Made by a program: the position numbers and the translations under genes. This document shows, piece by piece, positions 4,186-33,170 of a DNA stretch of 34,065 nt. The notes under the pieces were generated by a model. That model was not told where the DNA came from. It ran no database searches and was given only the letters and a program-made list of their open reading frames with translations. This stretch comes from a virus: positions 1-34,065 of IMG/VR virus record IMGVR_UViG_3300005467_000030. The stretch is one strand, 5' to 3'. Every line of letters starts with the position of its first letter. Position 1 is the stretch's first letter.

Positions 4186-5069
4186 CGATACGGCCACCAC
4201 GGGACGATGCAGCCTGAGCCTTGCTGCGGACCGGATCCTGGCACGGGATCGTCGACGTGGGGGATCACGTTCGTTTGCGAGTAGACCGGCTTGCTCGGGT
4301 CCGCGTCGGCGACGACGTTGAATATCATGCCGGGGCGCGCCTGGGCCCACATGTCAGCTCGGACCTCGGCTACGTGCAGGTCGGTCAAAAGCGAGGCCAT
4401 GACGGTGCCGAGCGCGTCCTGCACCGTGTATGTCGGGGCCGCCGGCGGGACAGTTGGTGGGGTAACGGGAGGTTTGACCACCGGTGGGATCACTACAACC
4501 GGTGGCTGGGTCGCGGGGGCCGACGGTTGCACTATCGGCCTGAACCGCAGGACCTTGCAGATGATGGTGGCCGGATCCCCATACAGGTTCAGCCGCTTGA
4601 CCACCCCGTCATACGAGTCACACACAATTAAGGACGAGGCTGGCTGGCCAGCCGTGTAGTTCCACACGGGTAGGAAGTGCGGGCTGTCGGTCACGAGCCC
4701 GTTGGGGAAGCGGATGAATAGAAGGACGTAGTCGGGTCCATTGTTGTCGGCGGTCCGGAGGTCGGCGGCGCCGGCCGGTGCGTAAGTGCTGACCAGATCG
4801 ATGAGGTTCGGGAATGCCAGGTGGAGAGCGGTATCCGGCAGCAGGTCGCCCGAGACATAGATCCCGTTGGCCTTGTAGAGGTCGTTCAGCTCAGCTGGAG
4901 TGATCGAGTGCCCCATCCACGTGAGGACGTCCGCGTCGCTCACCAGGTAGCAGCCGGCGCCGTATTTGCTAGTCGGGCTGGGCCCGATCGTGTCCGGACC
5001 GAAACCGAGCAGGGTCGTCGACCATCGTCCATCGACCTGCGACCAGCCGTTGGCGGTGCTTAAGGTCAT
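4182..5069 (-). CDS. Putative endolysin, C39-like cysteine peptidase
   Basis: In this 295-aa protein, residues 8-175 match the plan of C39-like (Peptidase_C39_2) domains: WSQVDGRWS, then LGFG..TIG, then the YGAGC nucleophile Cys40, then SITPAELNDLYK, His131 (DSPHFLPVWN) and an acidic residue at Asp151/Asp154. Such domains in phages cleave peptidoglycan cross-bridge peptides. A proline-rich linker (about 178-212) leads to a C-terminal domain of about 80 residues that may bind the cell wall. There is no signal peptide, as expected for a holin-dependent lysin. The ribosome site AGGAGG is 11-12 bases upstream. The location next to small membrane proteins supports a lysis role. Confidence 0.75.
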   Translation of the reverse strand: MTLSTANGWSQVDGRWSTTLLGFGPDTIGPSPTSKYGAGCYLVSDADVLTWMGHSITPAELNDLYKANGIYVSGDLLPDTALHLAFPNLIDLVSTYAPAGAADLRTADNNGPDYVLLFIRFPNGLVTDSPHFLPVWNYTAGQPASSLIVCDSYDGVVKRLNLYGDPATIICKVLRFRPIVQPSAPATQPPVVVIPPVVKPPVTPPTVPPAAPTYTVQDALGTVMASLLTDLHVAEVRADMWAQARPGMIFNVVADADPSKPVYSQTNVIPHVDDPVPGSGPQQGSGCIVPWWPYR

Positions 5070-5102
5070 TGGCGTCCAACCTCCTGCGTTGGGTTTTGTG
5101 CT

Positions 5103-5134
5103 GCGGCGTTAATTCAGTGGTAGAGTCGGCTGTC
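5103..5134 (+). other. tRNA 5'-half-like sequence
   Basis: The stretch reads like acceptor GCGGCGT, TA, D arm ATTC-AGTGGTA-GAGT, then C and GGCTGTC. No matching anticodon 3' strand, T arm or acceptor complement follows; instead the antisense gene begins within five bases. It may be a recombination scar from a tRNA or a chance resemblance. Confidence 0.3.
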
Positions 5135-5136
5135 AA

Positions 5137-5646
5137 GTGAAAGTGACCTTGCGAACAGCACTCGTCGGTGTGATCGTGGCGGCAAGCGTGGCCAGCCTGG
5201 GCGTCGCAGCCTTCTTGCACCAAGGCCCGAGCGGACCGGTGCACATCCAGTCGGCGGGCGTCTTGGGCTCACCGTCGCCGGGCGTCCTCGCGACCGGCGG
5301 CGACGTGACCGCGAGCTCGACGCCTGACGCGTCACCGCTGCCTGACCCGAACGGGGTGCCAAACCCGAACACGGCGACCACGCCACCGCCAGCGCCGCGA
5401 CCTGCGCCCGCCCCGGCACCGCCGCCACCGACCCCCACCTACTGCGGACACGCATTCGTCTACGCGGCACAGGTTGTCAGCGTGCCCGCCAACTCGGTCG
5501 TGTATCCGACGTGTACCTTGAGCGGGGGCAAGCCGTTCGGGCCTGGCGCGGTGACCGTCACCGGCTACATCGACACGCCGCAGGGCCGCATCTACCGCAT
5601 AGGCGACCCGGTCATCACGCCTGGGGCCTGGTTCAAGGCCCCATAG
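5137..5646 (+). CDS. Secreted proline-rich protein on the strand opposite to the late operon
   Basis: This 169-aa protein starts with a typical signal sequence: a short basic N-terminus (VKVTLR), a hydrophobic core TALVGVIVAASVASLGVAAF, and no lipobox cysteine. Residues 40-100 are a Ser/Pro/Ala-rich spacer with PAPAPAPPPPTPT. A small C-terminal domain (100-169) has two cysteines (TYCGHA, YPTCTL) that could form a disulfide outside the cell. It is the only gene in the structural block on the plus strand and overlaps the 3' end of the neighbouring gene tail to tail by 14 bases. It is divergent from the endolysin across a 67-base gap. The GTG start has no strong ribosome site. A lysogenic-conversion or superinfection-exclusion moron is plausible but not shown. 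Confidence 0.7.
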   Translation: MKVTLRTALVGVIVAASVASLGVAAFLHQGPSGPVHIQSAGVLGSPSPGVLATGGDVTASSTPDASPLPDPNGVPNPNTATTPPPAPRPAPAPAPPPPTPTYCGHAFVYAAQVVSVPANSVVYPTCTLSGGKPFGPGAVTVTGYIDTPQGRIYRIGDPVITPGAWFKAP

Positions 5647-5881
5647 GCAGCGGCGGGGGCGGCGGCGTGACGCCAGCCGCGCCGACAACGGCCGCAAGGT
5701 AGCGCCGCAGCAGGGCCCACAAGTCGTCGGCGAGTTCCGGGCCTGGTTGGCCGCTCCACACGCCCGGTGTGGTCACGCCCGCCACCGTGAGGTCATACTC
5801 CACGTGCAGCCCACTGATTGCCTTCGTGGTCGGGTCGATGTCAAGCGAGGCGGCCTTGAACCTGACAGTGATGGTCGCCAA
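5633..5881 (-). CDS. Small tail-region protein of unknown function
   Basis: This 82-aa protein starts with TTG four bases after the upstream stop, with GGAGGT six bases before the start. The first 45 residues look like beta strands (TITVRFKAASLDID, GLHVEYDLTV), followed by a helix (ELADDLWALLRRYLAAVVG) and a proline run (PPPPPLP) at the end. No family was recognised. Its place at the end of the tail-tip genes suggests a minor tail or assembly component. Confidence 0.65.
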   Translation of the reverse strand: MATITVRFKAASLDIDPTTKAISGLHVEYDLTVAGVTTPGVWSGQPGPELADDLWALLRRYLAAVVGAAGVTPPPPPLPMGP

Positions 5882-5884
5882 CCC

Positions 5885-6487
5885 TCAACCTCCCGGCGCG
5901 TACACGTCGATGTTGCCCTGGTAATAGGCCGCCTGCAGCCCCGCGTCGCCGGTGATTTGCTGACGCACCTCGTAGGTCCCAGCGGGCAGGGGACCGAAGG
6001 TCGGCGAGCCCTGGGTGAGCCCGAGCGCCGGGGCCCCCGGCCCACCGGCGCCCTGAATCTGCGTGTAGGCGATGACGAACTCTTGCACAGAGTTGATGTA
6101 GGCGTTCACGCCCTTGTCGAACAACTGGGTCCCGCTGTAGAAGATGATGGCCGCGTTGTTCCACGGGGAAAGGCTCACGGCAGTCCGAAGGTAGGCGAAG
6201 TTTCCACCGCCCGGGGCGGAGAGTTTGAGCGTCACGTAGGACCGCCAGATGACCACCTGAGGCGCGCTCAGGGTGAACCGGCAGGGCGTGAGCATGGTCA
6301 CGTCGTACTGGCTGACCCCGTCCATGTTGCCGGCCCCCGGAAGCGTCTGATTCTGATTGGCCGAGTTGCCAGGCGTCGAGATGAGTGGATACACGTTGAG
6401 CAACGGCGCGCGCTCGAGTTTCTGCAGCCGCCGGTCGAAGTCGCCGAAGTTGCGGCCGAGCTCGTCGGGGCGCAGGATGCGGCCCAT
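5885..6487 (-). CDS. Minor tail / baseplate protein
   Basis: This 200-aa protein begins with a short charged helix (ELGRNFGDFDRRLQKLERAP) typical of trimerising N-termini of actinophage tail-tip proteins. A beta-rich body follows with aromatic strands (VVIWRSYVTLKL, AAIIFYSG, GTYEVRQQITG), resembling a small carbohydrate-binding or jelly-roll-like domain. Its ATG shares an A with the hub gene's stop (TGATG), so translation is coupled. A role as a receptor-binding or cell-surface-contact protein is inferred from position after the hub. Confidence 0.65.
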   Translation of the reverse strand: MGRILRPDELGRNFGDFDRRLQKLERAPLLNVYPLISTPGNSANQNQTLPGAGNMDGVSQYDVTMLTPCRFTLSAPQVVIWRSYVTLKLSAPGGGNFAYLRTAVSLSPWNNAAIIFYSGTQLFDKGVNAYINSVQEFVIAYTQIQGAGGPGAPALGLTQGSPTFGPLPAGTYEVRQQITGDAGLQAAYYQGNIDVYAPGG

Positions 6488-7668
6488 CAGAGCGGCGTCG
6501 GCCCCATCGTCAGCAGGACCTTCTCGGGCTGGTCGTAACCCGCCCTCACGTTGACCTCGAGAATGCGGTAGAAGGTGTCAATGCCAGGCCCAACGGGGTT
6601 GTTCCTCGCATCGACGCCGGAGTTGAACCGGAAGTCGAGGATGCGTACTCGCGCGTCGTCGCCGACGGTGTATGTGCCGAGCACCGGGTCGAGGTCGGGC
6701 CGCACTTCGAGCACAGGCAGGGCGACCGGGTTGGCGAGGGCCTTGCCGTCGGCGGTCGCGTGGGCGTTCAGCTCGGCCTGCGTCTTGGCGTCCCGGTAGG
6801 AGAACACGCGCTCGAGCAGCGGATAGCCGGCGTCGATGAGTCCTGGCGTCGAGTATTGCGACTGCAGGGTCGCCGAGCCCGAGCCCGCGCCGATGTCGTA
6901 GACGGTGACGCCCTGCACGGTCGCGTCCTCCGGCCAGTCGTAGTCGGAGATGTTGCCCGTGATGTCCGGGGCGGCGATGCCCGCCGGGTTCACGAACCAG
7001 CCCGAAACCTCGTGCTCGAACACCCACCCACTCGAGGTCTGCACCGCACCGCGCCGCGGGTAACTGAGCGTGAGCGTCTTGGTTGGCACGCCGCCGACGT
7101 AGGAGACGTCGATGGCGATATCGAGGCCCTGGTCCAGCGCCGCGATCTCGCGCACGGCGTCGCCGATGAGCTTGTATTCGTAGGGGTTGTACGTGATCGT
7201 GCGCGTGACGCCGGACATGGGGATGACGGGCACGGTGATGCCGATGTTGCCGCCGCCGATGCCCTGCAGCCAGTTGACGAGGGCCTGAACGATGACGACC
7301 TGGTCATAGGCCGCCGCCCCCGAGACCTGCGCCAGGCTCGCCGTCAGGTAGCGGTGATCGAGGTAACTCAGGAAGTCCATCGCCTGCAACTCGAGCGTGC
7401 GCGCGGACGCCTTGTAGCGGCGGGTCCAAATGATGCCGCCCCACACGAGCACCCCGTCGCGGTCGACGTAGAGCGCCGTGCGCCCCGGCAGCGTGGCTCC
7501 CTGCAGATAGTTCGCCACCTTGTTCGCGGCCGGGTCGGTGAGCAGCACCTTGCCCCGCAGTGAACCAATGTCGTCAAGGCGGGTGGTGAAATCCACCTCG
7601 TATGCCGGAATCTCGGCGAGGATCGCGTTGGTCCTGAGGTCGGCCGCGAGGTAGGTGTAGCGGGCCAC
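6487..7668 (-). CDS. Tail hub / tail-associated protein (Gp37-like)
   Basis: This 393-aa protein has N-terminal strands with VWGGIIWTRRYKA, then LELQAMDFLSYLDHR. This is the signature I associate with the siphovirus ReqiPepy6 Gp37-like tail family, the counterpart of the baseplate hub. The central part (NPYEYKLIGDAVREIAALDQG) is helical, and the rest is beta-rich. It likely caps the tail tube below the distal tail protein and links to fibres. The GTG start directly abuts the previous stop. Length fits the family. It is flanked by a fibre-like gene upstream and minor tail genes downstream, as expected for a tail tip. Confidence 0.75.
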   Translation of the reverse strand: MARYTYLAADLRTNAILAEIPAYEVDFTTRLDDIGSLRGKVLLTDPAANKVANYLQGATLPGRTALYVDRDGVLVWGGIIWTRRYKASARTLELQAMDFLSYLDHRYLTASLAQVSGAAAYDQVVIVQALVNWLQGIGGGNIGITVPVIPMSGVTRTITYNPYEYKLIGDAVREIAALDQGLDIAIDVSYVGGVPTKTLTLSYPRRGAVQTSSGWVFEHEVSGWFVNPAGIAAPDITGNISDYDWPEDATVQGVTVYDIGAGSGSATLQSQYSTPGLIDAGYPLLERVFSYRDAKTQAELNAHATADGKALANPVALPVLEVRPDLDPVLGTYTVGDDARVRILDFRFNSGVDARNNPVGPGIDTFYRILEVNVRAGYDQPEKVLLTMGPTPL

Positions 7669-18732: not shown

Positions 18733-19986
18733 TTAGACGAAGGTCAGGGTCGAGCTCGCGAGGGCGAGGAACTTGTCGAATCCGATCACCTGGCTCACGA
18801 CGATCTCGTTCAGCTGTGAGCGGATGTCCTTGTCGGTTTCTGTCAGAGCCGAGTTGTTCTCGACCAGCTGCTCGATGCCGAACCTCTTGTCGAGGCCGAC
18901 CAGTAGGCCGCCCGGAGCCCAAGGGTGGTAGACGAGGTTGACATTGACGCCGTAGATGTTCACGGACATCGACAGCTTGCCGGTCTGTACGCGCTGGTCC
19001 GGCTGCTGGAGCAACGCCAGCAGGGTGAGTGGGTCGACGTTGGGGAACTGCAGGGTGAGCACCTGGAGCAGCTCGTTGAGCCGCCCGATTACGGTGGTCA
19101 TGTGCAGCGGGTAGAGGGAGGCCCGGAAGATGAGCCAGGCCTTGTAGGTCAGGCCCTTGGTGATGGTCGACGTCTGGCTGGTCACCAGGTCGGTGACGGT
19201 GCCAGGGCCCGCCGGAGCTGCGGGGTCGAGCGACGAGGCGTTGAAGTTCGGCGCCGCGTTGCCGTTGCCGTCGCCGTTCTGCAGGATGTTGATGGCGTGG
19301 GTGGCCAGGTCAAGCTTGATCTGCATGGCGATACGGGCGAGGAACAGCGAGAACAGGTCGACGCGCAGGCGGCGGTAGGTCTCGTATGTTCCCTTGAGGG
19401 CGACGCCGTACTTCTGCAGCTTGACGTTGTTCTCGAAGGTGGCGATGGTGATCGGTGGGATCTCTGCGCCCTCTTCGACCCTCTGCAGCTGGCGCTGTGA
19501 CTGCCCGGGCGCCGTCTGGATGTTGTCGTTGAGGTAGATCGCCTTGTACGTGTCGGTGTCGATCGGGGTCACCTGGGCCACGATGTCGCCGAGCACATCC
19601 TCGGGCAGGGGGATGATCCTCATCTGCCGGTTGATGAACTCCGGGTAGAGGATCCAGGACTGCGGCTGGTCGCTGGCGAAGAACCGGGTGCCGTCAGGCT
19701 TGATCGGGTTGTAGAACTCCTCGAGCCGCGAGGCGGGCTTCATCAGACGCAAGTCCGGCTTGGTCCTGATGTTGAAGTGGTGCAGCTGGCGCTCGAAAGC
19801 GTCGAGCTTTCCAAGCGACGAGTACTCGCCCGAGTCGGGGTACCGCTCGCTCGGATCGACTTCCTCGAGCTTGGCCGACAGGCGCTTGCGCTCGTTGCGG
19901 CACTCGCGCACGATCTGCCAGTCGGCTCCCTCGGCCTTGAGGATCTCCTGGAACGACGGCTTGAACTGCGTGATGGTTGGGGCCAC
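18733..19986 (-). CDS. Major capsid protein (HK97-fold)
   Basis: This 417-aa protein lies just after a decoration-type protein and the protease-scaffold, the typical order. It has an N-terminal charged coiled-coil-like arm (ECRNERKRLSAKLEEVD), then a globular region with GTRFFASDQPQSWILYPEFI, DTDTYKAIYLND, KYGVALKGTYETYRRLRVDLFSLFLARIAMQIK (long spine-like helix), and a C-terminal domain (IYGVNVNLVYHPW, LLVGLDKRFGIEQLVENN). The N-arm may be removed by the protease or act as part of the scaffold interaction. The start is GTG, with AAAGGAGG 12 bases upstream. Length fits HK97-fold capsids. Confidence 0.85.
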   Translation of the reverse strand: MAPTITQFKPSFQEILKAEGADWQIVRECRNERKRLSAKLEEVDPSERYPDSGEYSSLGKLDAFERQLHHFNIRTKPDLRLMKPASRLEEFYNPIKPDGTRFFASDQPQSWILYPEFINRQMRIIPLPEDVLGDIVAQVTPIDTDTYKAIYLNDNIQTAPGQSQRQLQRVEEGAEIPPITIATFENNVKLQKYGVALKGTYETYRRLRVDLFSLFLARIAMQIKLDLATHAINILQNGDGNGNAAPNFNASSLDPAAPAGPGTVTDLVTSQTSTITKGLTYKAWLIFRASLYPLHMTTVIGRLNELLQVLTLQFPNVDPLTLLALLQQPDQRVQTGKLSMSVNIYGVNVNLVYHPWAPGGLLVGLDKRFGIEQLVENNSALTETDKDIRSQLNEIVVSQVIGFDKFLALASSTLTFV

Positions 19987-20034: not shown

Positions 20035-20463
20035 CTAGTTCTTCTTGACGAGGCAGACGGTGTTGCCAGTCGCGGGGTCGACCACAAAGCCGACGCATAC
20101 GGCCTGCTTGTTGGCCGCCGTCTGCGTGACCTTGCCGGTGCCGTCGACACCAACCGCGACGTTCGGGGCCGGGTTGGTCGCCACGAATGCGAAGGTCATG
20201 TAGCCGCGGTCCTGGACCGACATCATGCCGTCGGTCGAGACCTGCTTGACCTTGCCGTAGAGCTCGTTGCCGGAGGCGCCCAGGCCGACGAGCGGCGTGC
20301 CGGTGCCGACGTTGGTGAGCGTCACGGCGAGCTTCAGCGAAGTTGAGGGGACGAAGCCGCCGGCGCCGAGGGTCGGCAGGTTGATGGTGCCGTCGCCGAG
20401 GATCGTCGCGAAGTGAGCGTCGAGCTCGTCCCAGGCCGTGGAGAGTCGGGGGTCGTTCGCCAT
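20035..20463 (-). CDS. Capsid decoration protein
   Basis: This 142-aa, beta-rich protein has TSLKLAVTLTNVGTGTPL, YGKVKQVSTDGMMSVQDRG and GFVVDPATGNTVCLVKKN. It resembles trimeric head-decoration proteins of the lambda gpD class in size, composition and location (between scaffold/protease and major capsid). Two cysteines near the C-terminus could pair. AAGGAGG lies upstream of the ATG. It would stabilise the expanded shell. Confidence 0.72.
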   Translation of the reverse strand: MANDPRLSTAWDELDAHFATILGDGTINLPTLGAGGFVPSTSLKLAVTLTNVGTGTPLVGLGASGNELYGKVKQVSTDGMMSVQDRGYMTFAFVATNPAPNVAVGVDGTGKVTQTAANKQAVCVGFVVDPATGNTVCLVKKN

Positions 20464-20508: not shown

Positions 20509-21627
20509 CTACCAGGGGTTGGTCTTGAAGAGGTCCACGTTGACCGCGGCGGCCACCGCGGCGGGCAGCTTGGTCTTCGTCGGTGTGCCCGGCAGCAGGC
20601 CCGGTGTCGTCTGCCGGCCGACGCGATCCACGAGCGATGGCAACCAGTCCGGTCGCTCCTCCACTGGGGCGTTCGCGAAGCGCTTCCAGGCATCGCGCTC
20701 GAACTCCTTGGTCAGTTCCTCGATCTGTCCGAGCTCCATCGAGGGCAGCAACCGCTTGTAGAGCTCGGCGTTGAAATCGGTGCCTCGCGCGCGCACACCC
20801 CAAGCCAAGAGCTCCCCGGCGACGGCGCGGCGGTAGTCGCGGCCAGCTTTGGCCTGCGCGACCAGGGCGCGGATCGCAGCGAACTCGGGGGCGCGCAGCG
20901 CCGCCTCGAGTTGCAGCGCGCGCCTGGCCCTGGCCTCATGGTCGGCCGAGCGACCTGGCACCAGGACGGGCTGGTCGTGGGCCGAGCCTGCAGGCCCCGG
21001 CCCGATGGCGCTCGACGTAATCGGGATGGCGTCCTCGGCCGACTGCTGCTCAACGTCCTGCTCGTCCTCTTGCGCGTCGGTCGCAAGAAGGTCCGAGATG
21101 ATGCCGTTGATGGTGCCCAGAGCCGACTTGACCTTGGCATCGAGGTTGGCGCCCGCGTTGCCGATGGCGATTGAGCGCGATCGTCCGCCACCGATGCTGC
21201 CGTTGGGCGGCATGGTGCCGTTGCCGCTTCCGTTTGGCGTTGCGCCCGACCCATAGTCGAGCGTCTTGAGCCCAGCGGCTTGTCCCGGCTCGAGGTCCTC
21301 CTGCGACGCCATGTTGTCCGGCAGCCCGTACTGCATGCCGCCCTCAGCGCCAATGCCGACCAAAGTCTTGAGCGCCTTGAGCGCCTCGGCGTGAGCATCG
21401 TGCGCGTCGGCCATCTGGTCGAGGATCCCCTGCATCTGGGATGCCATGTCCGGAGCCATCGCAGGGCCCGCGCGCTTGACCATCGACGCCGCGACGCGGT
21501 TCACGAGGTCGGGCGTCACGTCGTCCGGATTGGCGCTGATCAGCGCATCGACGATGCGCTCGCGCTCGGCGACGGGCATCCTCACGCCGGCGAGGTTGGC
21601 GAAGGTCTCTGGGTCGAGTGGCGTCAT
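20509..21627 (-). CDS. Nested scaffold protein from an internal start
   Basis: The ATG at residue 526 of the polyprotein is preceded by GGGAGG with a four-base spacer (21632-21637), as good as the real gene starts here. The product, about 372 aa, would begin MTPLDPETFANLAGV and consist of the helical Ala/Glu/Gln-rich part with a linker containing GSGATPNGSGNGT. In lambda the scaffold Nu3 is made the same way inside the protease gene C, with shared C-terminus. Expression from this start is inferred from the ribosome site and the domain break. Confidence 0.55.
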   Translation of the reverse strand: MTPLDPETFANLAGVRMPVAERERIVDALISANPDDVTPDLVNRVAASMVKRAGPAMAPDMASQMQGILDQMADAHDAHAEALKALKTLVGIGAEGGMQYGLPDNMASQEDLEPGQAAGLKTLDYGSGATPNGSGNGTMPPNGSIGGGRSRSIAIGNAGANLDAKVKSALGTINGIISDLLATDAQEDEQDVEQQSAEDAIPITSSAIGPGPAGSAHDQPVLVPGRSADHEARARRALQLEAALRAPEFAAIRALVAQAKAGRDYRRAVAGELLAWGVRARGTDFNAELYKRLLPSMELGQIEELTKEFERDAWKRFANAPVEERPDWLPSLVDRVGRQTTPGLLPGTPTKTKLPAAVAAAVNVDLFKTNPW

Positions 21628-23202
21628 GTTGCCTCCCTTGTTGGATTTCACCCTTCCCTCGTCGTCGACCTCTATGCCGAGGGTCTTGGCATGAGCCTTG
21701 ACGTGGCTGAGTGCGCTCGACTTGGCGGCGTCGCTCACGTCTGACTGCGGGATCCGCGCGAGGGCGTTGCGCACGTGTGCCTCGTCCAACTTGTCCGCGT
21801 CATCGTGATGAGGGAAGTGGCGGAGCGACCGCGGCGTGGTCTTGCCTTCCTCGTCCTTCTTGCCTCCAGGCTCGATGTAGGCAAAAGCTGAGTCGGGAAG
21901 GTCGTTCATCATCGCGGTCGACCAGGTCGCTCGTTCGAGCGCGCTCGCTTTCTCCCAGGTCTTGCCACTCACGAACAGGGAGAAACGCCCTCGCGCAGCA
22001 ATCGCCACTCGACGCTCGACTTCTTCGCGGCCGAGAAATTCGACCGACTGGCGCGCGTGGGCTGGCAGCAGCTCGACCCATCTGTCGGCCGGCGTGTCAG
22101 CGTGGTCATGCTCGGGTGGCGAGTCCTCGTGGTCGTGCTCGAACTCGCTGTGCTTGTGTGGATGCTCCATGCGCTTGCTCTCCTTCGCGCGGTTGATGGG
22201 AGTAACGGTTGTGGTGATGGTCACGGGAGTCGGCTCGCCGAGGGTGACCTTGCCGCCGTCATCGATCGAATAGGTGGCCTGGTAACTGCCAGCCTTCGAT
22301 CCGCCGGTGACGGTCCAAGCAACATCCGCGTCAGTGGTGCGGTCGAGGTATGCCCACTCGTCATCACCCGGGTACAACTTCTGCACGGCGTTCTGGATCG
22401 CCTTCTGCCGGTCCTCATAAGCCGTGGGAGTGCGATCGCCGCCCGGCTCAGGAGGACCACCAGCCGACGGAGCCACGCTGCGGATTCGAGTGCGATACAG
22501 ACGCTCGAGTCGGGCGACCTGCTTGGCATCGAGTTGCCCCGCTGCTGCCATACGCTGCGCCTTGTCGATCATGGCGCGTGGGGTGGCGCCATCAAAACAA
22601 AGGGAATGCTCGAGAGCGTGACCGTCGACAATCAGCGCCTCTGCGCGCTTCCCACCGTAGGTCAGCCCGGGCATATGGATGCACGAGCTTTCGCGCTCGT
22701 ACATGTCGCCACCGCAGATAGTGCAGCGGTACTCCGCTTCATCGTCGAAGTGGACGCTGACGTCGCGAACCACGCCGGCCTCAATCGCGCGCACCAGGTC
22801 GTCCGTGGGGACGCCGTTGATGTTGATGCCGCGAAGGATGTAACTCTTCACCACCGCGGCAGTACGGGCGGGGTCGTTGGGGTCGCCCTCGCGCCCTCGC
22901 TGCTCAAGGGCCGCATCGAAGCTCGTACCGAGGGGAAGCTCTTCCGTTCGGTGGGAATTCATCAGAGACCGACCTTCCTTGAAGTCATCGACGAAGTTGG
23001 GGAGGGTGGTCTCCGGATCCATGGTCGTGAAGTACGAATCGCGCAGCGAGTTGCTCGTTTCGGTCTGTACTACGAAGACATCGTTCTTCGTAAGAGGCTT
23101 CAGAGCGCGCGAGTTGATAATCTGGAGGTCATCGTCGTCCGGTTCCCCGAGAGGCTTGAGAGCTCTCTGCATCTGGTAGGCGATGTCGACGGCGTCAGAC
23201 AT
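20509..23202 (-). CDS. Head maturation protease-scaffold polyprotein
   Basis: This 897-aa protein is far longer than usual proteases. Residues 1-155 look like a prohead serine protease: His84 in MNSHRTEELPLG and Ser149 in VVRDVSVHF fit the His/Ser pair of the S78/U35 type. Residues 160-205 hold a Cys/His cluster (CTICGGD, SSCIHMPG) that may bind zinc. Residues 258-335 form an alpha/beta domain (YEDRQKAIQNAVQKLYP, then strands). A His/Asp-rich linker (345-370) precedes a small domain (DLPDSAFAYIEPG, HAKTLGIEV). Residues 526-897 are helical and Ala/Glu-rich, like a scaffold. Internal ribosome sites before Met345 and Met526 suggest nested products. AGGAGG precedes the main ATG by five bases. Confidence 0.78.
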   Translation of the reverse strand: MSDAVDIAYQMQRALKPLGEPDDDDLQIINSRALKPLTKNDVFVVQTETSNSLRDSYFTTMDPETTLPNFVDDFKEGRSLMNSHRTEELPLGTSFDAALEQRGREGDPNDPARTAAVVKSYILRGININGVPTDDLVRAIEAGVVRDVSVHFDDEAEYRCTICGGDMYERESSCIHMPGLTYGGKRAEALIVDGHALEHSLCFDGATPRAMIDKAQRMAAAGQLDAKQVARLERLYRTRIRSVAPSAGGPPEPGGDRTPTAYEDRQKAIQNAVQKLYPGDDEWAYLDRTTDADVAWTVTGGSKAGSYQATYSIDDGGKVTLGEPTPVTITTTVTPINRAKESKRMEHPHKHSEFEHDHEDSPPEHDHADTPADRWVELLPAHARQSVEFLGREEVERRVAIAARGRFSLFVSGKTWEKASALERATWSTAMMNDLPDSAFAYIEPGGKKDEEGKTTPRSLRHFPHHDDADKLDEAHVRNALARIPQSDVSDAAKSSALSHVKAHAKTLGIEVDDEGRVKSNKGGNMTPLDPETFANLAGVRMPVAERERIVDALISANPDDVTPDLVNRVAASMVKRAGPAMAPDMASQMQGILDQMADAHDAHAEALKALKTLVGIGAEGGMQYGLPDNMASQEDLEPGQAAGLKTLDYGSGATPNGSGNGTMPPNGSIGGGRSRSIAIGNAGANLDAKVKSALGTINGIISDLLATDAQEDEQDVEQQSAEDAIPITSSAIGPGPAGSAHDQPVLVPGRSADHEARARRALQLEAALRAPEFAAIRALVAQAKAGRDYRRAVAGELLAWGVRARGTDFNAELYKRLLPSMELGQIEELTKEFERDAWKRFANAPVEERPDWLPSLVDRVGRQTTPGLLPGTPTKTKLPAAVAAAVNVDLFKTNPW
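22168..22185 (-). promoter_or_regulatory. Second internal ribosome site in the polyprotein
   Basis: AAGGAG (22180-22185) lies nine bases before the ATG of Met345, which begins a His/Asp-rich segment (EHPHKHSEFEHDHED). The spacing is a little long but functional. If used it yields about 553 aa without the protease domain. Confidence 0.4.
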
Positions 23203-23210
23203 TTGGCCTC

Positions 23211-24074
23211 CTATCGGGGGTTCTGTGTGTAGGTCCCGAAAGCGCCAGGGATGGCGTTTGGGTCGGTGCCGGAGATGTACGACGGGTCGTTCGCCTTCGG
23301 CTTCGGATGGGCGATCATCGCCGCAGGCGGGGGTGCGAGGCCGGCTATGTAGCCGGTGACGAGGCCGAGGTAGTAAGCAGCGTCCTCGAACATCGCTGAT
23401 TCCTCGTGACGCCAGTCGACATCGATGGTCTCGCTGAAGGAGTACGAACGAAATTCGCGCGGCACCTTGCGCTGCATCCGTTTACAAAGGTGAGCTGCGC
23501 ACGCTGCCTGCGTCGCGGACTTGAGGTTGGCCAGATCGCCCTGCTCGGTCACGTCCTCGGGGCCGACCGCGCCGATGGCGCCGATCGCCGGGCCTGCGAG
23601 CGAGAATGCAAGCAGGCTGTAGAGCCCGCCGGGCGTCAGCCCCGCCTGCTGCAGGAACTCCTGAGTGGCTGCTGTGCCGACATACACGTCGTACGACTGG
23701 ATGCCGGGCGAGGTCGGGATGGTGATGTCGAGGCGTTGACCGACGGTGATCACTTGCGATGCCTCAACGCCGGGAGGTGATGGTATGCCGGCCGCGCGCG
23801 CAACGAGAATGACGTAATAGGTCGCTGCAAGCAGCGAGGTCGGTGGCGAGACGGTGGTTGCAGCAAGCACCGGTGCAGCTGGCTGCGTGAGCTGCATGAT
23901 GAGCGCCCAAGCGGGGAGTTGCTTCATTACGAACCGCTCGCCGGCGCCGAGCACCCACGGGTGCAGCAACACGTCGTCGCCGAGCTCGCTGGGTTCGAAC
24001 CCAAGCATTTCGCGGATGCCGCCGAGGTCGTCCGGCGAGTTGAGGATCTGCCCGAAGTCGGTGGTGCCCGCCAT
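23211..24074 (-). CDS. Head-tail connector/adaptor with probable Ig-like insert
   Basis: This 287-aa protein has an N-terminal helix LGGIREMLGFEPSELGDDVL and a C-terminal helical region (SATQAACAAHLCKRMQRK) typical of connector proteins that sit under the portal ring. Residues about 68-150 instead form a Pro/Val-rich beta module (APVLAATTVSPPTS, YYVILVARAAGIPS, IQSYDVYVGTA) resembling fibronectin-III or Ig-like domains. The ATG directly follows the tailspike stop. The acidic, Pro/Gly C-terminus is probably disordered. Adaptor is inferred from position and the bounding helices. Confidence 0.6.
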   Translation of the reverse strand: MAGTTDFGQILNSPDDLGGIREMLGFEPSELGDDVLLHPWVLGAGERFVMKQLPAWALIMQLTQPAAPVLAATTVSPPTSLLAATYYVILVARAAGIPSPPGVEASQVITVGQRLDITIPTSPGIQSYDVYVGTAATQEFLQQAGLTPGGLYSLLAFSLAGPAIGAIGAVGPEDVTEQGDLANLKSATQAACAAHLCKRMQRKVPREFRSYSFSETIDVDWRHEESAMFEDAAYYLGLVTGYIAGLAPPPAAMIAHPKPKANDPSYISGTDPNAIPGAFGTYTQNPR

Positions 24075-25631
24075 TCAGAGCCCATACCCCGCCGCGCTCG
24101 CCGGGGCGTTGTTGAAACTGATGGCCGCGCCAGCCGGCACGATCACCGTCCCGACCTGGTTGGCGGGCACGGCGCTCATGGCCTTTCCCGACACGGTCGG
24201 CGTGGAGCCCGCCGCGTTGGCGACGAAAGTCAGAAGCACGTCATACGGGTTGGTGTTCGTCCATGGGAAGGCCCCGACGACGGCCGCCCCCGCCTGGGGG
24301 TTGATGCCGCCGACTTGACGGAACGCGACCACGTTCAGGCCCGACGAGTCGAGGAAGCCGAGGGTCGAGCCGAGCATGAAACCGCCGGTGACGCTGATCG
24401 TGCTCATGGTCCCGCCAGCCCCCTTTCCCAGGCCGACGCCGTACTTCATGGCCGCGTTGCCCGCGTTGTAGCCGATGCAGTTCGCCAGCGTGACGAGGTT
24501 CGTCGACGTGGCAGCCGGGGCCAGGATGACGAACCCGGCCGCAGTGAAGTCCACCTGTCCGCCGATGCCGCAGGCGATGGCGATGCAGTCCGTGTAGGTG
24601 ACGACGTTGGTCTGGAAGGCGACGGTGATGTCGCCACACTGGAAGCCCGCCGACCGGCAATTCTTGGCGGTCGAGGCGCTCACGCCAATAAAGTTGCAAC
24701 CGGCGACGTCTATGCCGTTGTTCGTCCCTATCACGTGGCAGGCGACTATCGCGCCGTTGTCCACCTGCACGAAGTCGATGCCGTCCGAGCCGCCCGTCGT
24801 GTTCTTGACCGAGCAGCCGATGACCCTGGCGTTCTCGAGGTGGGTGCCGCCGCCGAAAGCCTGGCCTACCACGATTCCCGCGTAACCGGCAAGCTGACTC
24901 CCGCCATCGACATGGCAGCCGAGGATCAGCACGTCCTCGACGAAGTCGACCCCGCCGTTGGCGATGAAGTCCTCGACGGCTATCACCGGGTTGTTCCCGA
25001 GCGTCAGGCTGTAGGGCCCCGGCCGCAGCCCGATGACCTCGACGTGGCTTGAGCGGTCGATCCTGACCGCAGGCGAGTCGATGGTTTTGAGTTTCCCGGC
25101 GACCGTCGGGTGGTTGCAGCCTGTGAGGTTGATCCAGTAATTCGGGGTCGGGATGCCGCTGACGGTGCCGTAGGCCGTGTGGCGCAGGTAGTGCGCGCCC
25201 GGCGAGCCATGAATGAAGTCGGTCGCCTTGGCGTTGCCGTTGTAGGTGTAGCGGCCCTGAAAGGTGATGCCCTCCCCGTTCGGCATGAAGATGCCGTTGG
25301 CGAGGCTCGCCAGGGCCGTGATGGTCGCGCCCTGAAGGGTGACCGTCGTGTCCGCGGGAACGTTCAGCGTGCCCGACACGCCGTAACTACCCGGCGGAAT
25401 CACGACGTGGCCGCCGGCCCCGTCGGTCAGGGCGGCCTGGATCGCGGTGGTGGCGTCGGTGCCGTCGCCCTTCGCGCCCCCGTAAGTCCTTGCGTTGTAC
25501 GAGGGGAACGAGTACGCCTCGAGCAACTGAACGGCGTCGCGAATCCGATCCTCTCGCGCGAGGTTCGTCAGCGTGCTCAGAAGGTCGAGGCTGCCCGGGT
25601 AGACGCTGAGCCCCGGCGCCGGGCCGGCCAT
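24075..25631 (-). CDS. Right-handed beta-helix (pectate-lyase-fold) protein, possible tailspike or depolymerase
   Basis: This 518-aa protein has a segment at about residues 43-90 that reads YNARTYGGAKGDGTDATTAI, then GHVVIPPGSYGVSGTLNVP, the hallmark of the Pectate_lyase_3 entry motif shared by phage tailspikes. Repeated short strands with Asn/Cys-containing turns continue to about 440 (VEDVLILGCHVDGG, ENARVIGCSVKN, NGAIVACHVIG, TYTDCIAIACG). The C-terminal 75 residues look like a small beta sandwich (YDVLLTFVANAAGSTPTV). No signal peptide is present. Tailspikes usually sit by tail-tip genes; this one lies in the head module. Polysaccharide-degrading activity is an inference; structural decoration of the capsid is an alternative. 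Confidence 0.72.
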   Translation of the reverse strand: MAGPAPGLSVYPGSLDLLSTLTNLAREDRIRDAVQLLEAYSFPSYNARTYGGAKGDGTDATTAIQAALTDGAGGHVVIPPGSYGVSGTLNVPADTTVTLQGATITALASLANGIFMPNGEGITFQGRYTYNGNAKATDFIHGSPGAHYLRHTAYGTVSGIPTPNYWINLTGCNHPTVAGKLKTIDSPAVRIDRSSHVEVIGLRPGPYSLTLGNNPVIAVEDFIANGGVDFVEDVLILGCHVDGGSQLAGYAGIVVGQAFGGGTHLENARVIGCSVKNTTGGSDGIDFVQVDNGAIVACHVIGTNNGIDVAGCNFIGVSASTAKNCRSAGFQCGDITVAFQTNVVTYTDCIAIACGIGGQVDFTAAGFVILAPAATSTNLVTLANCIGYNAGNAAMKYGVGLGKGAGGTMSTISVTGGFMLGSTLGFLDSSGLNVVAFRQVGGINPQAGAAVVGAFPWTNTNPYDVLLTFVANAAGSTPTVSGKAMSAVPANQVGTVIVPAGAAISFNNAPASAAGYGL

Positions 25632-28980: not shown

Positions 28981-29469
28981 TTAGTTGAGCGGCGACATCG
29001 CCGACTGGATCTCGAATGTGCCCGTCTGCGCCGCCGCCCCGTTGACGTACACGAAGCGGATGAACCGCAGCAGCGACTTGGTCGGCACGATGCGCGCGCC
29101 GAAACTCGTGGCGGCGACGGTGCCCGGCGAGCCATGCGTCGCTGGCTCGGCGGCCGCCGCCTGGGTCGCGACCTGGTAGATGTTCGCGCCCGAGGCCGCG
29201 CTCGATTCGTCCATGAGCAGGGTGCCCGCCTGGCCGCCCGACACGTTCGACTTCGCGCCGGCCCAGTTGTAGTTGGTCGTGTCGCGCATCGAGCCGGTGA
29301 ACGTGGCGCTCGACCCGAGCAGCGCCGTGGTCTCGGCATTGAACTGCGAGATGTCCTGCACGGCCTGCCCCGGGTTCGTGAACAGAAGGGTGCCGTTGTC
29401 GTCGGTGACGTCGGTCTTACCCGCGGCCATGCGAACAAGGTCGCGGGTGTATTCCTGCTCCTGCTTCAA
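28981..29469 (-). CDS. Head-region structural protein
   Basis: This 162-aa protein starts with TTG in a TTGA overlap with the MuF gene, with GGAGGAA eight bases upstream. A helical N-terminus (EQEYTRDLVRMAAG) is followed by a beta-rich body (DNGTLLFTNPGQAVQD, LLRFIRFVYVNGAAAQTGTF). The C-terminal strand resembles the last strand of capsid-associated beta proteins. It probably belongs to the capsid, as a vertex or decoration component; I could not name a family. Confidence 0.6.
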   Translation of the reverse strand: MKQEQEYTRDLVRMAAGKTDVTDDNGTLLFTNPGQAVQDISQFNAETTALLGSSATFTGSMRDTTNYNWAGAKSNVSGGQAGTLLMDESSAASGANIYQVATQAAAAEPATHGSPGTVAATSFGARIVPTKSLLRFIRFVYVNGAAAQTGTFEIQSAMSPLN

Positions 29470-30644
29470 GCTGGTTCCTCCAAATCTCCGCCGGCCCATG
29501 GCGTGGTCGGCAGGTGCCAGTCGTCGGGAATTACTGGGGACCAGTAGTGTGTGCAGCGAGGGTGGATGGGTATGAGGCTCACAGCCTCGTCCGAGTCCAC
29601 ATCAAAGCGTTCACCGACGTACTCGTCGCAAATGTCCCCGCTGTATCCACCGTCAACCTCGACCTGTGCGACGTCGTTCTCGCGATACGTATCGAGTTCG
29701 GCAGCAGCTGACGCGCGCGCCATCTCCGTCGACGCGATCGTGATGCCACGCACCGTGCTCGCTTCGTCCCAGGTCTCGTCGATCGCCTCTGCTTTCTCGA
29801 CGATCGTTCCGTCGCTGGCGAGGATTGCACGCAGAATCTCGGACGTTGTCTCGTCGATGCCGACGATCCGATCGAGGAGTAGCGCGTCGACGCGCTCTTG
29901 AAGCTTCGGATCGTCGATGGAGAAGTCGCCACCGACCACGAGCCCACCGTCGCGCCTGGCTTTCCTACGGAAATCCTCCGCTCGCAGGATGTCGAGCGCA
30001 TGCTGTCCAGCTGCCCGATAGGCATCGCGCTGATGCGGGAGCAGCCCTTTGGCGTCGAAGTGGGGATTCCAGCCGGCCAGCTCGTCGTGGTTGGTGACTC
30101 CATGGTCGACGTGGGTGAGTAGACCTGTTGCCCGGGCCCACATGTCGAAGGCTGCCTGTTGCCGGCGAAACTCGAGGCGAACCGCGGCGACGTATGCGCG
30201 CCAGATGGTGACGCCGCCGGGCAGTCGCAGCAGGTTTCCGGGCGGTGTCTCCGAGTGCGTGCGGCCAACGTCGCCCGAGGCTCGCATCGCGGCTACAGCT
30301 AGTGCGCGGGCCCGCTCCTGTGCCGCCCAGGCGAAGTAGCGCCGCAGGGTGGCGGGTTGCGGGTCCTCCTTGATGCAGGCCCACAGGCCCTCGAGGGTGA
30401 CGACGCGCGCGAAGGCGGTCAGCTCGCCCGCCGGCGGCGGCAGTTTGCCAAGAGCTTCGACCAGGTCACCCTTTACCGGGCTTCGCCAAAAGCGGGCGCC
30501 GAGGCGACGCTCCAGCTCGTGCCCCTCGCGGAGCAGGAGCTCCTGTAGCCCTACAGCGAGGCGGTCACTTCTTCTTTGCGCGGGAGGCTGATTTGGCGGC
30601 GCGTGCCGCGTGCTTCGCGGTCCGGACCCTCGCGTGATGGCCAC
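29466..30644 (-). CDS. Minor head protein, MuF/SPP1 gp7-like
   Basis: The C-terminal region reads IASTEMARASAAAELDTYRE, then YSGDICDEYVG and IPIHPRCTHYWSP. These form the T-E, C and H-P-x-C motifs of the phage head morphogenesis (Mu gpF/SPP1 gp7) domain. Upstream is a long helical region (EGLWACIKEDPQPATLRRYFA and beyond) with no catalytic feature. MuF proteins sit inside the procapsid near the portal and may carry effector domains; none is seen here. The frame is open to 30791, but the gene starts after the portal; GTG codons at 30665 and 30644 are the best candidates, without clear ribosome sites. Start confidence is low, function high. Confidence 0.78.
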   Translation of the reverse strand: MAITRGSGPRSTRHAPPNQPPAQRRSDRLAVGLQELLLREGHELERRLGARFWRSPVKGDLVEALGKLPPPAGELTAFARVVTLEGLWACIKEDPQPATLRRYFAWAAQERARALAVAAMRASGDVGRTHSETPPGNLLRLPGGVTIWRAYVAAVRLEFRRQQAAFDMWARATGLLTHVDHGVTNHDELAGWNPHFDAKGLLPHQRDAYRAAGQHALDILRAEDFRRKARRDGGLVVGGDFSIDDPKLQERVDALLLDRIVGIDETTSEILRAILASDGTIVEKAEAIDETWDEASTVRGITIASTEMARASAAAELDTYRENDVAQVEVDGGYSGDICDEYVGERFDVDSDEAVSLIPIHPRCTHYWSPVIPDDWHLPTTPWAGGDLEEPA

Positions 30645-30687
30645 CGTGGCGGTTGTGGTGCCCACCCGTTTGGACCGTCTTTGCCAC
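30565..30687 (-). CDS. Possible 40-aa basic protein between portal and MuF
   Basis: A GTG two bases after the portal stop opens a 40-aa frame (VAKTVQTGGHHNRHGG, then AKHAARAAKSASRAKKK), basic and His-rich. It overlaps the 5' part of the MuF frame in a different reading frame, so the two may be alternatives. Codon use does not decide. Its sequence looks more like a small nucleic-acid-binding peptide than noise. Confidence 0.38.
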   Translation of the reverse strand: MAKTVQTGGHHNRHGGHHARVRTAKHAARAAKSASRAKKK

Positions 30688-30688
30688 G

Positions 30689-32350
30689 TCAGCGGTAGCG
30701 CTCGAGCATCCGCTCGACCTCGCGCTGCGCGGCGATGTGCGCATACACGAGACCCATGCCTGGGCCGGAGCGCACGATCGTTTCGGCCCACCGCGCGGGC
30801 TCACCAGCTGCAGCTTTTCCACCCGGAGCAGGTGGAGTGCCGGGTGGCATCGGCTGAGGCATTCCCTTGGGCGGCGCGAGCGGCGCCGGCGAGGGTGATG
30901 GCGCGGGCCCGACTGCATCGGACCCGGTCACCTCGTTGGACGCGTCGTCCTGGGAGATCCAGCCCTGGTCGCGCTTGTTTGTAGCGTTCTCGACCTCCTG
31001 CGCTTCAGCCATTGCATCCTGCAGGCGCTGCGTGGTCCGGATGGGGGCCCACTCGTGCTGTACCTGGCACTGCACGCCACGGAATTGCAGCGCGACGGTG
31101 AGGGCTCGTACCAGCACCTCGGCGACTATCTCGCGCAGGGTCACGCATGAGGCGCCGTAGATCTCGTACTCGACCGTTCCGTAGGTCTCGGTCTCACCCT
31201 TTCCCTGTCCGCCACCGTGAAAGATGGGCAGCGTCTTGAGAGCGACGATGAGCTGGTCGCGAAAAATCGCGACGATCTTCTCAGGCTCGAGCGCGCGTCC
31301 GCCGCTGCCTCTGCCACCCTGACCCATTTCCTTGTGGTGGTCGGCGCTGACGAAGTCCCAGTGGATGAAGGCATCTTCGGGGGCCATCGAGTTGTAGGCC
31401 GCAACGAGCTCCTGCATGCGCGCGGTCATCCACGCGTACTTCGCGCCTTCGTCCTCGAGGACCTCGGCCGGCATGGTCGGCTCGAGCAGTTCGTACACCA
31501 TGGTCAGGTCGACGCGAGGGAAGCCCATCTGGTGCATCACGCGCTGGAGGTCGCGAAGAATTGAGACGAGACCGAACACGATTTGCAGCGCGGCGGCAGC
31601 CGGCGCCCGGCCATATGGGTCGTCAATGAACGGGTCGACCGGGTTGTAGAAGAAGGTCTCCTCGTTCATCATCCGGTACGGGTACGCAGCTGCGAGGTTG
31701 CCCCAGATCGCCTGCCGCTGGAAGGGCACGAGCTTTTGCTCCTCGTCGCGCTGGAACCAGATCGAGTCCGGGTTGACGGCATAGATGTCGTCGAGATCTT
31801 TCAGGTTCTTGGTCGGCGCGGCCTCGGCGCACACCGCGCCCTGGAGGTATGCGCTCAGCAGTAGCTGGCGAATGAGCGCCTCGATGCCTCCGAACTGCGG
31901 GTTGGTGCCGAGGATGAGGTCGTCGAGGTGCTTCTGTCCCTGCGGGAACTCCTTGCCGTTCGGCGTGACAGCGGTGAACTTCAGATCCGTCCCGCACGTC
32001 CGCAGGTACGACCACACTGCGACCGAGAAGTCTGGGTTGAGGTCGGGGAGGATGGCGAGGAGCTGGTCGGCAGTGAACTGCGTGACGTCGAGCTCTTCGA
32101 CGTCGATCTCCTGGTACTGGCGCTTGGGGATGAAGTACCACCCGCTCAGCCCGAACGGGTTGTAGTTCATCGGCTGCGTCTGCCGGCCGGCAGTGGCAGG
32201 CGGGAAGGCGTACTTGTCGGAGATCGCCCTGGTGGCCGGCGTCATCAGGTTCTTCGTTGGCCGGCTTCGCTTGCGCGCATTGCGCGGCAGCTGGGGCAGT
32301 CGCGCCCAGTTGCGCGCTGCGTTTTCGAGGTCGCGCCTGTTCGCCATCAC
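30689..32350 (-). CDS. Portal protein
   Basis: This 553-aa protein forms the dodecameric DNA gate of the head. It has WSYLRTCGTDLKFT, LLLSAYLQGAVCAEAAP and DPYGRAPAAAALQIVFGLVSILRDLQRVMHQMGFPRVDL, the wing-stem pattern of siphovirus portals, then a clip-like region (MAPEDAFIHWDFV) and long helices (CVTLREIVAEVLVRALTVALQF). The C-terminus (about 480-520) is proline-rich and disordered and ends in a helix (AQREVERMLERYR) that may contact the protease or scaffold. The first start is GTG in a GTGA overlap with the phosphatase gene; the ATG at 32347 is the alternative. Length is typical. Confidence 0.88.
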   Translation of the reverse strand: MMANRRDLENAARNWARLPQLPRNARKRSRPTKNLMTPATRAISDKYAFPPATAGRQTQPMNYNPFGLSGWYFIPKRQYQEIDVEELDVTQFTADQLLAILPDLNPDFSVAVWSYLRTCGTDLKFTAVTPNGKEFPQGQKHLDDLILGTNPQFGGIEALIRQLLLSAYLQGAVCAEAAPTKNLKDLDDIYAVNPDSIWFQRDEEQKLVPFQRQAIWGNLAAAYPYRMMNEETFFYNPVDPFIDDPYGRAPAAAALQIVFGLVSILRDLQRVMHQMGFPRVDLTMVYELLEPTMPAEVLEDEGAKYAWMTARMQELVAAYNSMAPEDAFIHWDFVSADHHKEMGQGGRGSGGRALEPEKIVAIFRDQLIVALKTLPIFHGGGQGKGETETYGTVEYEIYGASCVTLREIVAEVLVRALTVALQFRGVQCQVQHEWAPIRTTQRLQDAMAEAQEVENATNKRDQGWISQDDASNEVTGSDAVGPAPSPSPAPLAPPKGMPQPMPPGTPPAPGGKAAAGEPARWAETIVRSGPGMGLVYAHIAAQREVERMLERYR

Positions 32351-32856
32351 GCGGCGCGACCGAGTGCGCGGACCTGCGCCTCGAGACGCTTGCCCTGCTC
32401 GACGAAACCGGTATTCGGGTTCGTTTGGGGCCGATGGATCCGGACGGCTGTGAGAGCGGTGTCCCAGTCAACGTCGAGCGCGGCCATGTGCAGGCATGTG
32501 TCAAGCAGCCCGCTTCGGCTGATGCCCGCAGCGCACAGATCGACCACGTGATAGCCCCGCCGCAGCACTGTGAGCAGCGTGCCTACGAGCACGATTAACT
32601 GATCGTCGGGCAGGCAGCCCTCAGGCGAGTCCTCGATGCCCACATATACGTAGGCGAGCACCTTCGCGCGATGGTCGACGAGGCGCTCGTAGTCCCAGGC
32701 CCGCGCCTCGACGTTCATCGCGACGATGACGAGGCCCTTCTCTGTGGCGGCCTCGACCGCCTTGAGGCCTTCGTCGTCGAGCATCCCGCCTTGCCAGATC
32801 GAGCCCCAACCAGGGCGCAGCCCGTCGAGGTCGATGCGGTCTCCGGACCAGGTCAA
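32347..32856 (-). CDS. Dual-specificity/tyrosine phosphatase-like protein
   Basis: In this 169-aa protein residues 106-116 read DLCAAGISRSG, a perfect C-x5-R-S signature with nucleophile Cys108 and Arg114 in the phosphate-binding loop. A GIEDSP element at 74-79 fits the general-acid loop (Asp77), and NTGFVEQ near 150 fits the conserved terminal helix of DSPs. These enzymes hydrolyse phosphotyrosine, phosphoserine or nucleotide/lipid phosphates. The start is TTG in a TTGA overlap with the previous gene and without a strong ribosome site. It lies directly upstream of the portal in the late operon. Whether it acts on virion, host or nucleotide substrates is unknown. Confidence 0.75.
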   Translation of the reverse strand: MTWSGDRIDLDGLRPGWGSIWQGGMLDDEGLKAVEAATEKGLVIVAMNVEARAWDYERLVDHRAKVLAYVYVGIEDSPEGCLPDDQLIVLVGTLLTVLRRGYHVVDLCAAGISRSGLLDTCLHMAALDVDWDTALTAVRIHRPQTNPNTGFVEQGKRLEAQVRALGRAA

Positions 32857-33170
32857 TCTCGCGGAATCTCGCGCGGGTTCTCTGCGGTCAGGTTGATGGT
32901 GACCCACTCCGTGCCGCCCTCGAGCTCGGCATGACCGCTGACGGTTGCCTTGAACGGTCCGACCCCGAGCTTCCCTGAGTCGATCAGGGATTCACATATG
33001 GACTTGGATGCGCGCAGCTGCTCCTCGACGCGCTCACGCAACGCGGGGTTGCCATCGAACGCCGGCAGAACGCCAGCGATGGCCTCGTCCGCAGATGCGG
33101 GAAAGTCGGCGCCCGCTATCGCGACGACCTGGCCGTCGCTCATCTTCGGGATGCTGATGCCGTAGCTCAT
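32853..33170 (-). CDS. Small protein upstream of the phosphatase
   Basis: In this 105-aa protein residues 14-60 hold VVAIAGADFPASADEAI, then FDGNPALRERVEEQLRAS; the C-terminal half is a short beta segment (FKATVSGHAELEGGTEWVTINL). ATGA overlap with the gene before it indicates coupling. No family was recognised. It could be a regulator or subunit of the neighbouring phosphatase, based only on operon position. Confidence 0.62.
   Translation of the reverse strand: MSYGISIPKMSDGQVVAIAGADFPASADEAIAGVLPAFDGNPALRERVEEQLRASKSICESLIDSGKLGVGPFKATVSGHAELEGGTEWVTINLTAENPREIPRD

Follow-up and report, generated by a model that had tools for sequence, protein, structure and literature searches.

Can one reading frame of an uncultured virus of bacteria supply both a head maturation protease and its scaffold, and how many nested products does it yield? 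The frame lies in the minus-strand late operon of IMG/VR record IMGVR_UViG_3300005467_000030, of which the whole stretch of 34,065 nucleotides (hereafter the window) was analysed. A first-pass annotation had described the encoded protein as a protease-scaffold polyprotein with two internal ribosome sites, at Met345 and Met526, and had compared it with the nested C and Nu3 genes of lambda.

Gene organization and genomic context

The claimed 897-aa open reading frame is present, running from an ATG without stops (Table 1), and its own start is preceded by a Shine-Dalgarno (SD) sequence, AGGAGG, at 4 nt. All of the modules proposed for it, namely a protease-like N-terminus, a Cys/His cluster, an alpha/beta domain, a His/Asp linker and a scaffold-like C-terminus, proved to be real. 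The claim of an unusual scale held in part: although the polyprotein is large, its component parts are found again in relatives, one of them a 661-aa protein of the cultured Thermoanaerobacterium phage THSA-485A.

Tape measure and tail genes are located downstream of the major capsid protein (MCP) gene, and the order protease-scaffold, approximately 140-aa gene, MCP is common to relatives (L024, L027, L092, L093, L095, L097 and L100). The 142-aa gene of the window is conserved in relatives in both sequence and place, and plausibly encodes a decoration or capsid-stabilising protein. The head module also contains a tail-spike/pectate-lyase-like gene (24075-25631, minus strand; phrog_2234, 4e-11; Pfam PF12708, 28.0 bits with a cut-off of 27), the second gene upstream of the protease. 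In addition, an ORF adjoining the portal gene (32347-32907, minus strand) shows a dual-specificity-phosphatase-like match (PF00782, E 5e-7), slightly below the cut-off.

Table 1. Coordinates of the genes and predicted features in the window
Feature	Position	Strand	Basis or outcome
Portal	32350..30689	-	phrog_3753
gp7/minor-head-like ORF	30791..29466	-	
ORF upstream of the 897-aa gene	24074..23211	-	
897-aa protease-domain-scaffold gene (96.9 kDa)	20509..23202	-	uninterrupted frame from ATG, no stops
Head maturation protease domain (predicted), residues 1-240	22483..23202	-	phrog_16951/37798, alignment, fold
Zinc-knuckle-like insert in protease, C160-x2-C163 ... C174-x-H176	22675..22725	-	23-sequence alignment
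Small helix-plus-sheet domain, residues 258-336	22195..22431	-	low-confidence model
Proposed internal start 1, AAGGAG-9-ATG345	22168..22185	-	not supported; shuffle P 0.77, bin not enriched
His/Asp/Glu-rich linker, residues 345-375 (7 His, 5 Asp, 5 Glu of 31)	22078..22170	-	
DUF6582-like domain, residues 419-515 (NDLPDSAFAYIEPGGKKDEEGKT...HVRNALAR)	21658..21948	-	THSA-485A identity, profiles
Candidate internal start 2, GGGAGG-4-ATG526 (372-aa, 39.1-kDa scaffold)	21625..21637	-	supported; class enriched in relatives
Putative scaffold region, residues 526-897	20512..21627	-	position between protease and MCP; C-terminal homology
Conserved scaffold C-terminal motif, residues 754-845 (GVRARGTDFNAELYKRLL...IEELTKEFE)	20668..20943	-	HMM
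142-aa gene between scaffold and MCP	20035..20463	-	syntenic in relatives
Major capsid protein (MCP)	18733..19986	-	phrog_3922, E 7e-52

A divergent protease of the assemblin fold

Residues 24-234 match two PHROGs, phrog_16951 and phrog_37798 (E 1e-13 and 9e-13), and show 31% identity to the 'head maturation protease' of Enterococcus phage fHoEfm07. His84, Ser149 and Glu198, invariant in an alignment of 23 viral sequences, are the predicted catalytic His, Ser and acidic residues of such a protease. The AlphaFold2 model of this region aligns best with T4 gp21 (5jbl; Z 10.4 over 143 residues, 3.1 A), followed by the herpesvirus proteases (assemblins; Z 5-7), so that the domain shows the assemblin-type fold of T4 gp21, HK97 gp4 and herpesvirus assemblin. 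A BFVD search retrieved phage prohead proteases (best E 6e-13); nothing significant appeared in Foldseek's own ranking of PDB entries for the protease, and the sequence of the window protein had no match in the PDB. The gathering score of Pfam Peptidase_S78 is not reached by the window protein, which gave no match; its protease therefore represents a divergent branch. Only one of the 23 aligned sequences matches this family (at 5e-4), and the fHoEfm07 relative passes it (23.7 versus 21 bits).

The Cys/His knuckle is nearly invariant in the protease branch of the window (C160, C174 and H176 in all 23 sequences, C163 in at least 90%) but absent in fHoEfm07. It possibly binds a structural zinc.

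The putative scaffold region

We infer a scaffold role for residues 526-897 from their position, in frame and C-terminal to the protease and before the MCP gene, as in the lambda C/Nu3 type, and from homology to the C-termini of other protease-scaffold proteins. An HMM of the C-termini of relatives, built without the window protein, matches residues 754-845 (E 5e-13 in the locus ORF set), and this motif is common to protease-scaffold fusions, including Jenst gp24 and fHoEfm07 gp6. The similarity is visible only in local searches among the fetched loci and with the profile; tblastn with the scaffold region gave no match in phage records. In one locus, L114, the protease and the scaffold C-terminus are encoded in two ORFs (4977-5954 and 6045-6542), which is either a natural split or a contig frameshift.

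A portable DUF6582-like domain in the middle cassette

The domain that the first-pass annotation could not recognise is, by sequence comparison, a distant relative of DUF6582 and phrog_16160, an uncharacterised but recurrent phage domain that is not specific to the 897-aa gene. Residues 419-515 are 66% identical to a stretch of Tsac_2860 of THSA-485A, and phrog_16160 matches at 5e-4. The domain scores 15.6 bits against Pfam DUF6582 (PF20223), below the gathering score of 27.3 bits; weak DUF6582 matches were obtained for 15 of 56 domain members (best 3.8e-6). Our literature search found DUF6582 named in no paper.

Structure prediction, which had been advised for residues 158-525, gave a confident core for residues 419-515 (pLDDT above 90) but no convincing solved fold: Foldseek returned nothing below E 1 against the PDB, and the best VIA-align Z was 5.4 on 45 helical residues. 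A fold assignment was dropped on these grounds. Residues 258-336 were modelled with modest confidence as a helix (261-276) followed by strands (284-327); the model gave Z 5.3 in the cystatin row, and a profile of the helix-plus-sheet domains found near the DUF6582-like domain in relatives matches the window protein weakly (13 bits).

Scans of fetched viral contigs, with domain limits set by an HMM made in the present analysis, yielded the DUF6582-like domain in 241 ORFs forming 103 clusters at 60% identity. It is preceded by approximately 130 or more residues and followed by 100 or more in 47 clusters. Of the N-terminal segments tested, nine of 10 match head maturation protease families and the tenth weakly matches a major head protein family. 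Where the domain is near the N-terminus, the head-protease matches are C-terminal to it in nine of 10 ORFs. Short domain ORFs without an evident protease are found in L019, L034, L050 and L088, and L073/L076 (5221-8289) encode a 1022-aa protein in which the domain is a tandem duplicate. Judging from these sequences, the domain is portable in IMG/VR phages: it is found N-terminal to the protease, in the interval separating protease from scaffold, by itself or as a duplicate; given these several arrangements, the cassette has been combined with several protease lineages. A pattern search of bacterial genomes gave no close relatives and one distant domain match.

Candidate internal translation starts

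Both internal SD signals exist exactly as described, AAGGAG with a 9-base gap before Met345 (ATG at 22170-22168) and GGGAGG with a 4-base gap before Met526 (ATG at 21627-21625), the latter with the spacing of the gene's own start. In synonymous shuffles, which leave the protein sequence and its codon pool unchanged, an SD of 6 or more nt persists at Met345 in 77% of cases because Lys-Glu is usually encoded here by AAG GAG, and 96% of shuffles contain some internal ATG with an SD of at least 6 nt. The Met526 signal, with a GGAGG core at 4 nt, is modest in the window alone, as 18% of shuffles reach at least 5 nt (P 0.18). Therefore, the two SD signals are not decisive by themselves. Among 22 in-frame ATGs, ATG345 and ATG526 occupy the top two places for accessibility in most settings; their ranks drop to 6 and 15 when a -12..+6 window is used. 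Accessibility was dropped as independent support for both ATGs: the shuffles are equally accessible (P 0.65 for Met345 and 0.24 for Met526), so this property reflects the amino-acid composition of the linkers. A sister virus represented by three contigs keeps both sites, at a divergence too small to test them (72 base differences within the gene, giving 58 synonymous codon changes and 11 amino-acid replacements). No relatives were found between 99% and approximately 42% identity; thus, the Met526 site is not traceable by close comparison.

Taken alone, these near-chance signals would agree with synthesis of the full-length protein only, as for P2 gpO, shorter forms arising by autoproteolysis and the internal SDs being incidental. 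Phage P2 uses one protease-scaffold protein (cited in PMC8508860), so an internal start is not obligatory. The diverged relatives argue against this reading and make it rather unlikely. In the 47 clusters, 21 in-frame SD-start pairs lie within 40 codons after the domain compared to 9.1 ± 2.5 in shuffles, none of 300 of which reach 21, in a test that treats clusters of shared ancestry as independent; for an SD of at least 7 nt, the numbers are 13 and 3.7. The post-domain windows were picked after inspection of a first subset that overlaps the final set, and the excess reappears in the protease-found family, where 23 relatives have 13 pairs at the protease-scaffold junction, Jenst M293 among them, versus 4.5 ± 1.8 (shuffle maximum 11 in 300). 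With an SD of at least 6 nt, 23 in-frame pairs occur in 3055 post-domain codons of the 47 clusters (7.5 per 1000), and the two alternative frames contain only 3 and 0. In-frame pairs number 0.6-0.9 per 1000 codons in the remainder of these ORFs, with the pre-domain window excluded; because the first possible start was taken for each metagenomic ORF, a fraction of the 'internal' starts close to the N-terminus may be genuine gene starts. In other parts of the same genes, both upstream and downstream, the pairs are fewer than in shuffles.

Scaffold-junction starts are thus clearly non-random as a class in the relatives, and a strong SD at the junction is absent in about half of them. The peak lies 10-25 codons after the domain, and Met526, at +23, falls within the peak bin; its GGAGG core is below the 6-nt criterion, so Met526 itself is not among the counted pairs. 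The window gene shares with the lambda C/Nu3 type an in-frame start with an SD at the scaffold junction, and the relatives strongly suggest that the scaffold would also be made alone from Met526.

The same junction sites bear on the view that the gene is a fusion relic, in which separate protease, domain and scaffold genes were joined and inactive ribosome sites remain at the seams. The modules are also found in different orders and encoded by separate genes (L019, L034, L050 and L088, as above). Nevertheless, the sites persist across very diverged lineages above the codon-shuffled expectation and decay would erase them, which renders a relic very improbable.

Met345 fared differently from Met526. 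Its use would add a third nested product to the full-length protein and the 372-aa scaffold, a 553-aa protein consisting of the linker, the DUF6582-like domain and the scaffold. Both SD-ATG pairs are intact in the sister virus and rank highest in accessibility in most settings, strong pairs are found just before and after the domain in L011, L205, L208 and L211, and pre-domain starts in relatives are marginally in excess (7 versus 3.9; 19/300). This excess, however, is confined to approximately 10 codons from the domain start, whereas Met345 precedes the domain by 74 codons, and in the corresponding -80..-60 bin 2 pairs are observed versus 2.1 expected; both its SD and its accessibility are those of the shuffles. 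Codon shuffles and position in relatives together led to the rejection of Met345 as a conserved start, and three products from the window gene appear improbable. That a triple-nested capsid gene exists, with one frame giving protease-domain-scaffold, domain-scaffold and scaffold, has a small chance; if true, the procapsid would receive the DUF6582-like domain at a separate stoichiometry, one determined by the ribosome sites. Strong SD-starts flank the domain directly on both sides in L208 (3479-4861), L205 (3098-4822) and L011 (5179-7485), and these genes are better three-product candidates than the window gene.

Comparison with known nested genes

The window gene resembles lambda C/Nu3 in the combination of a protease with an in-frame C-terminal scaffold and a likely internal start, located before decoration and capsid genes. 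The lambda C protease belongs to the ClpP/SppA-like class, whereas that of the window has the T4 gp21/assemblin fold; furthermore, the window gene contains an extra cassette of approximately 270 residues (258-525) between protease and scaffold. Mu-like genes (Mu I/Z, PaMx73 gene 27) similarly have an in-frame scaffold start with an SD proposed inside the protease gene, but, to our knowledge, their proteases are from another family and they lack a DUF6582-like insert. The overlapping C and Nu3 genes of lambda go back to Shaw and Murialdo (1980, cited in PMC8508860). For Mu, an internal scaffold start has been described, and for PaMx73 gene 27 one has been proposed, at putative Val177 (PMC4378225).

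Tsac_2860 of THSA-485A shares with the window protein a protease, a helix-plus-sheet domain, the DUF6582-like domain and a helical acidic C-terminus with AAGGAGGT-8-GTG343. It differs in the protease subfamily, has neither the Cys/His knuckle nor the His-rich linker, and the two show no detectable similarity in scaffold sequence. Conversely, Brevibacillus phage Jenst gp24 and the fHoEfm07 protein share the protease family and the scaffold C-terminal motif, with SD and ATG at the junction (TAAGGAG at Jenst M293, AAGGAGG at fHoEfm07 M239), but lack the cassette with the DUF6582-like domain. The protease class and the inserted cassette set the window gene apart from the nested genes of lambda and the Mu-like phages.

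Proposed function and implications

The computed domains, homology, fold and synteny, together with the excess of SD-starts at the junction of diverged relatives, support the comparison of Met526 with the Nu3 start. We consider it likely that this is a nested gene of the lambda C/Nu3 type that gives a precursor and a Met526 scaffold and carries an extra uncharacterised domain. The gene would produce a full-length protease-scaffold precursor of about 97 kDa and, from the in-frame Met526, as Nu3 is made inside C, a separate scaffold of 372 aa and about 39 kDa, presumably the more abundant product. The shared C-terminus would bring both into the procapsid, where the H84/S149/E198 protease would then cut the scaffold and the capsid proteins, allowing DNA to enter. 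Should Met526 be the only internal start, the cassette inserted between protease and scaffold (helix-plus-sheet domain, His-rich linker and DUF6582-like domain) would be present on the full-length protein alone. A possible role of the cassette is to tether or orient the protease, or else to bind the capsid or the portal.

Altogether, these observations suggest a wide occurrence, among genes for assemblin-fold proteases of uncultured phages, of internal scaffold starts like that of lambda Nu3. They also draw attention to an uncharacterised, portable domain (LPDSxFAYIEPGG...HxRNALAR) that is associated with head proteases across diverse phages; a role for this domain in targeting the protease or in assembling the capsid could be tested in THSA-485A, a relative available in culture.
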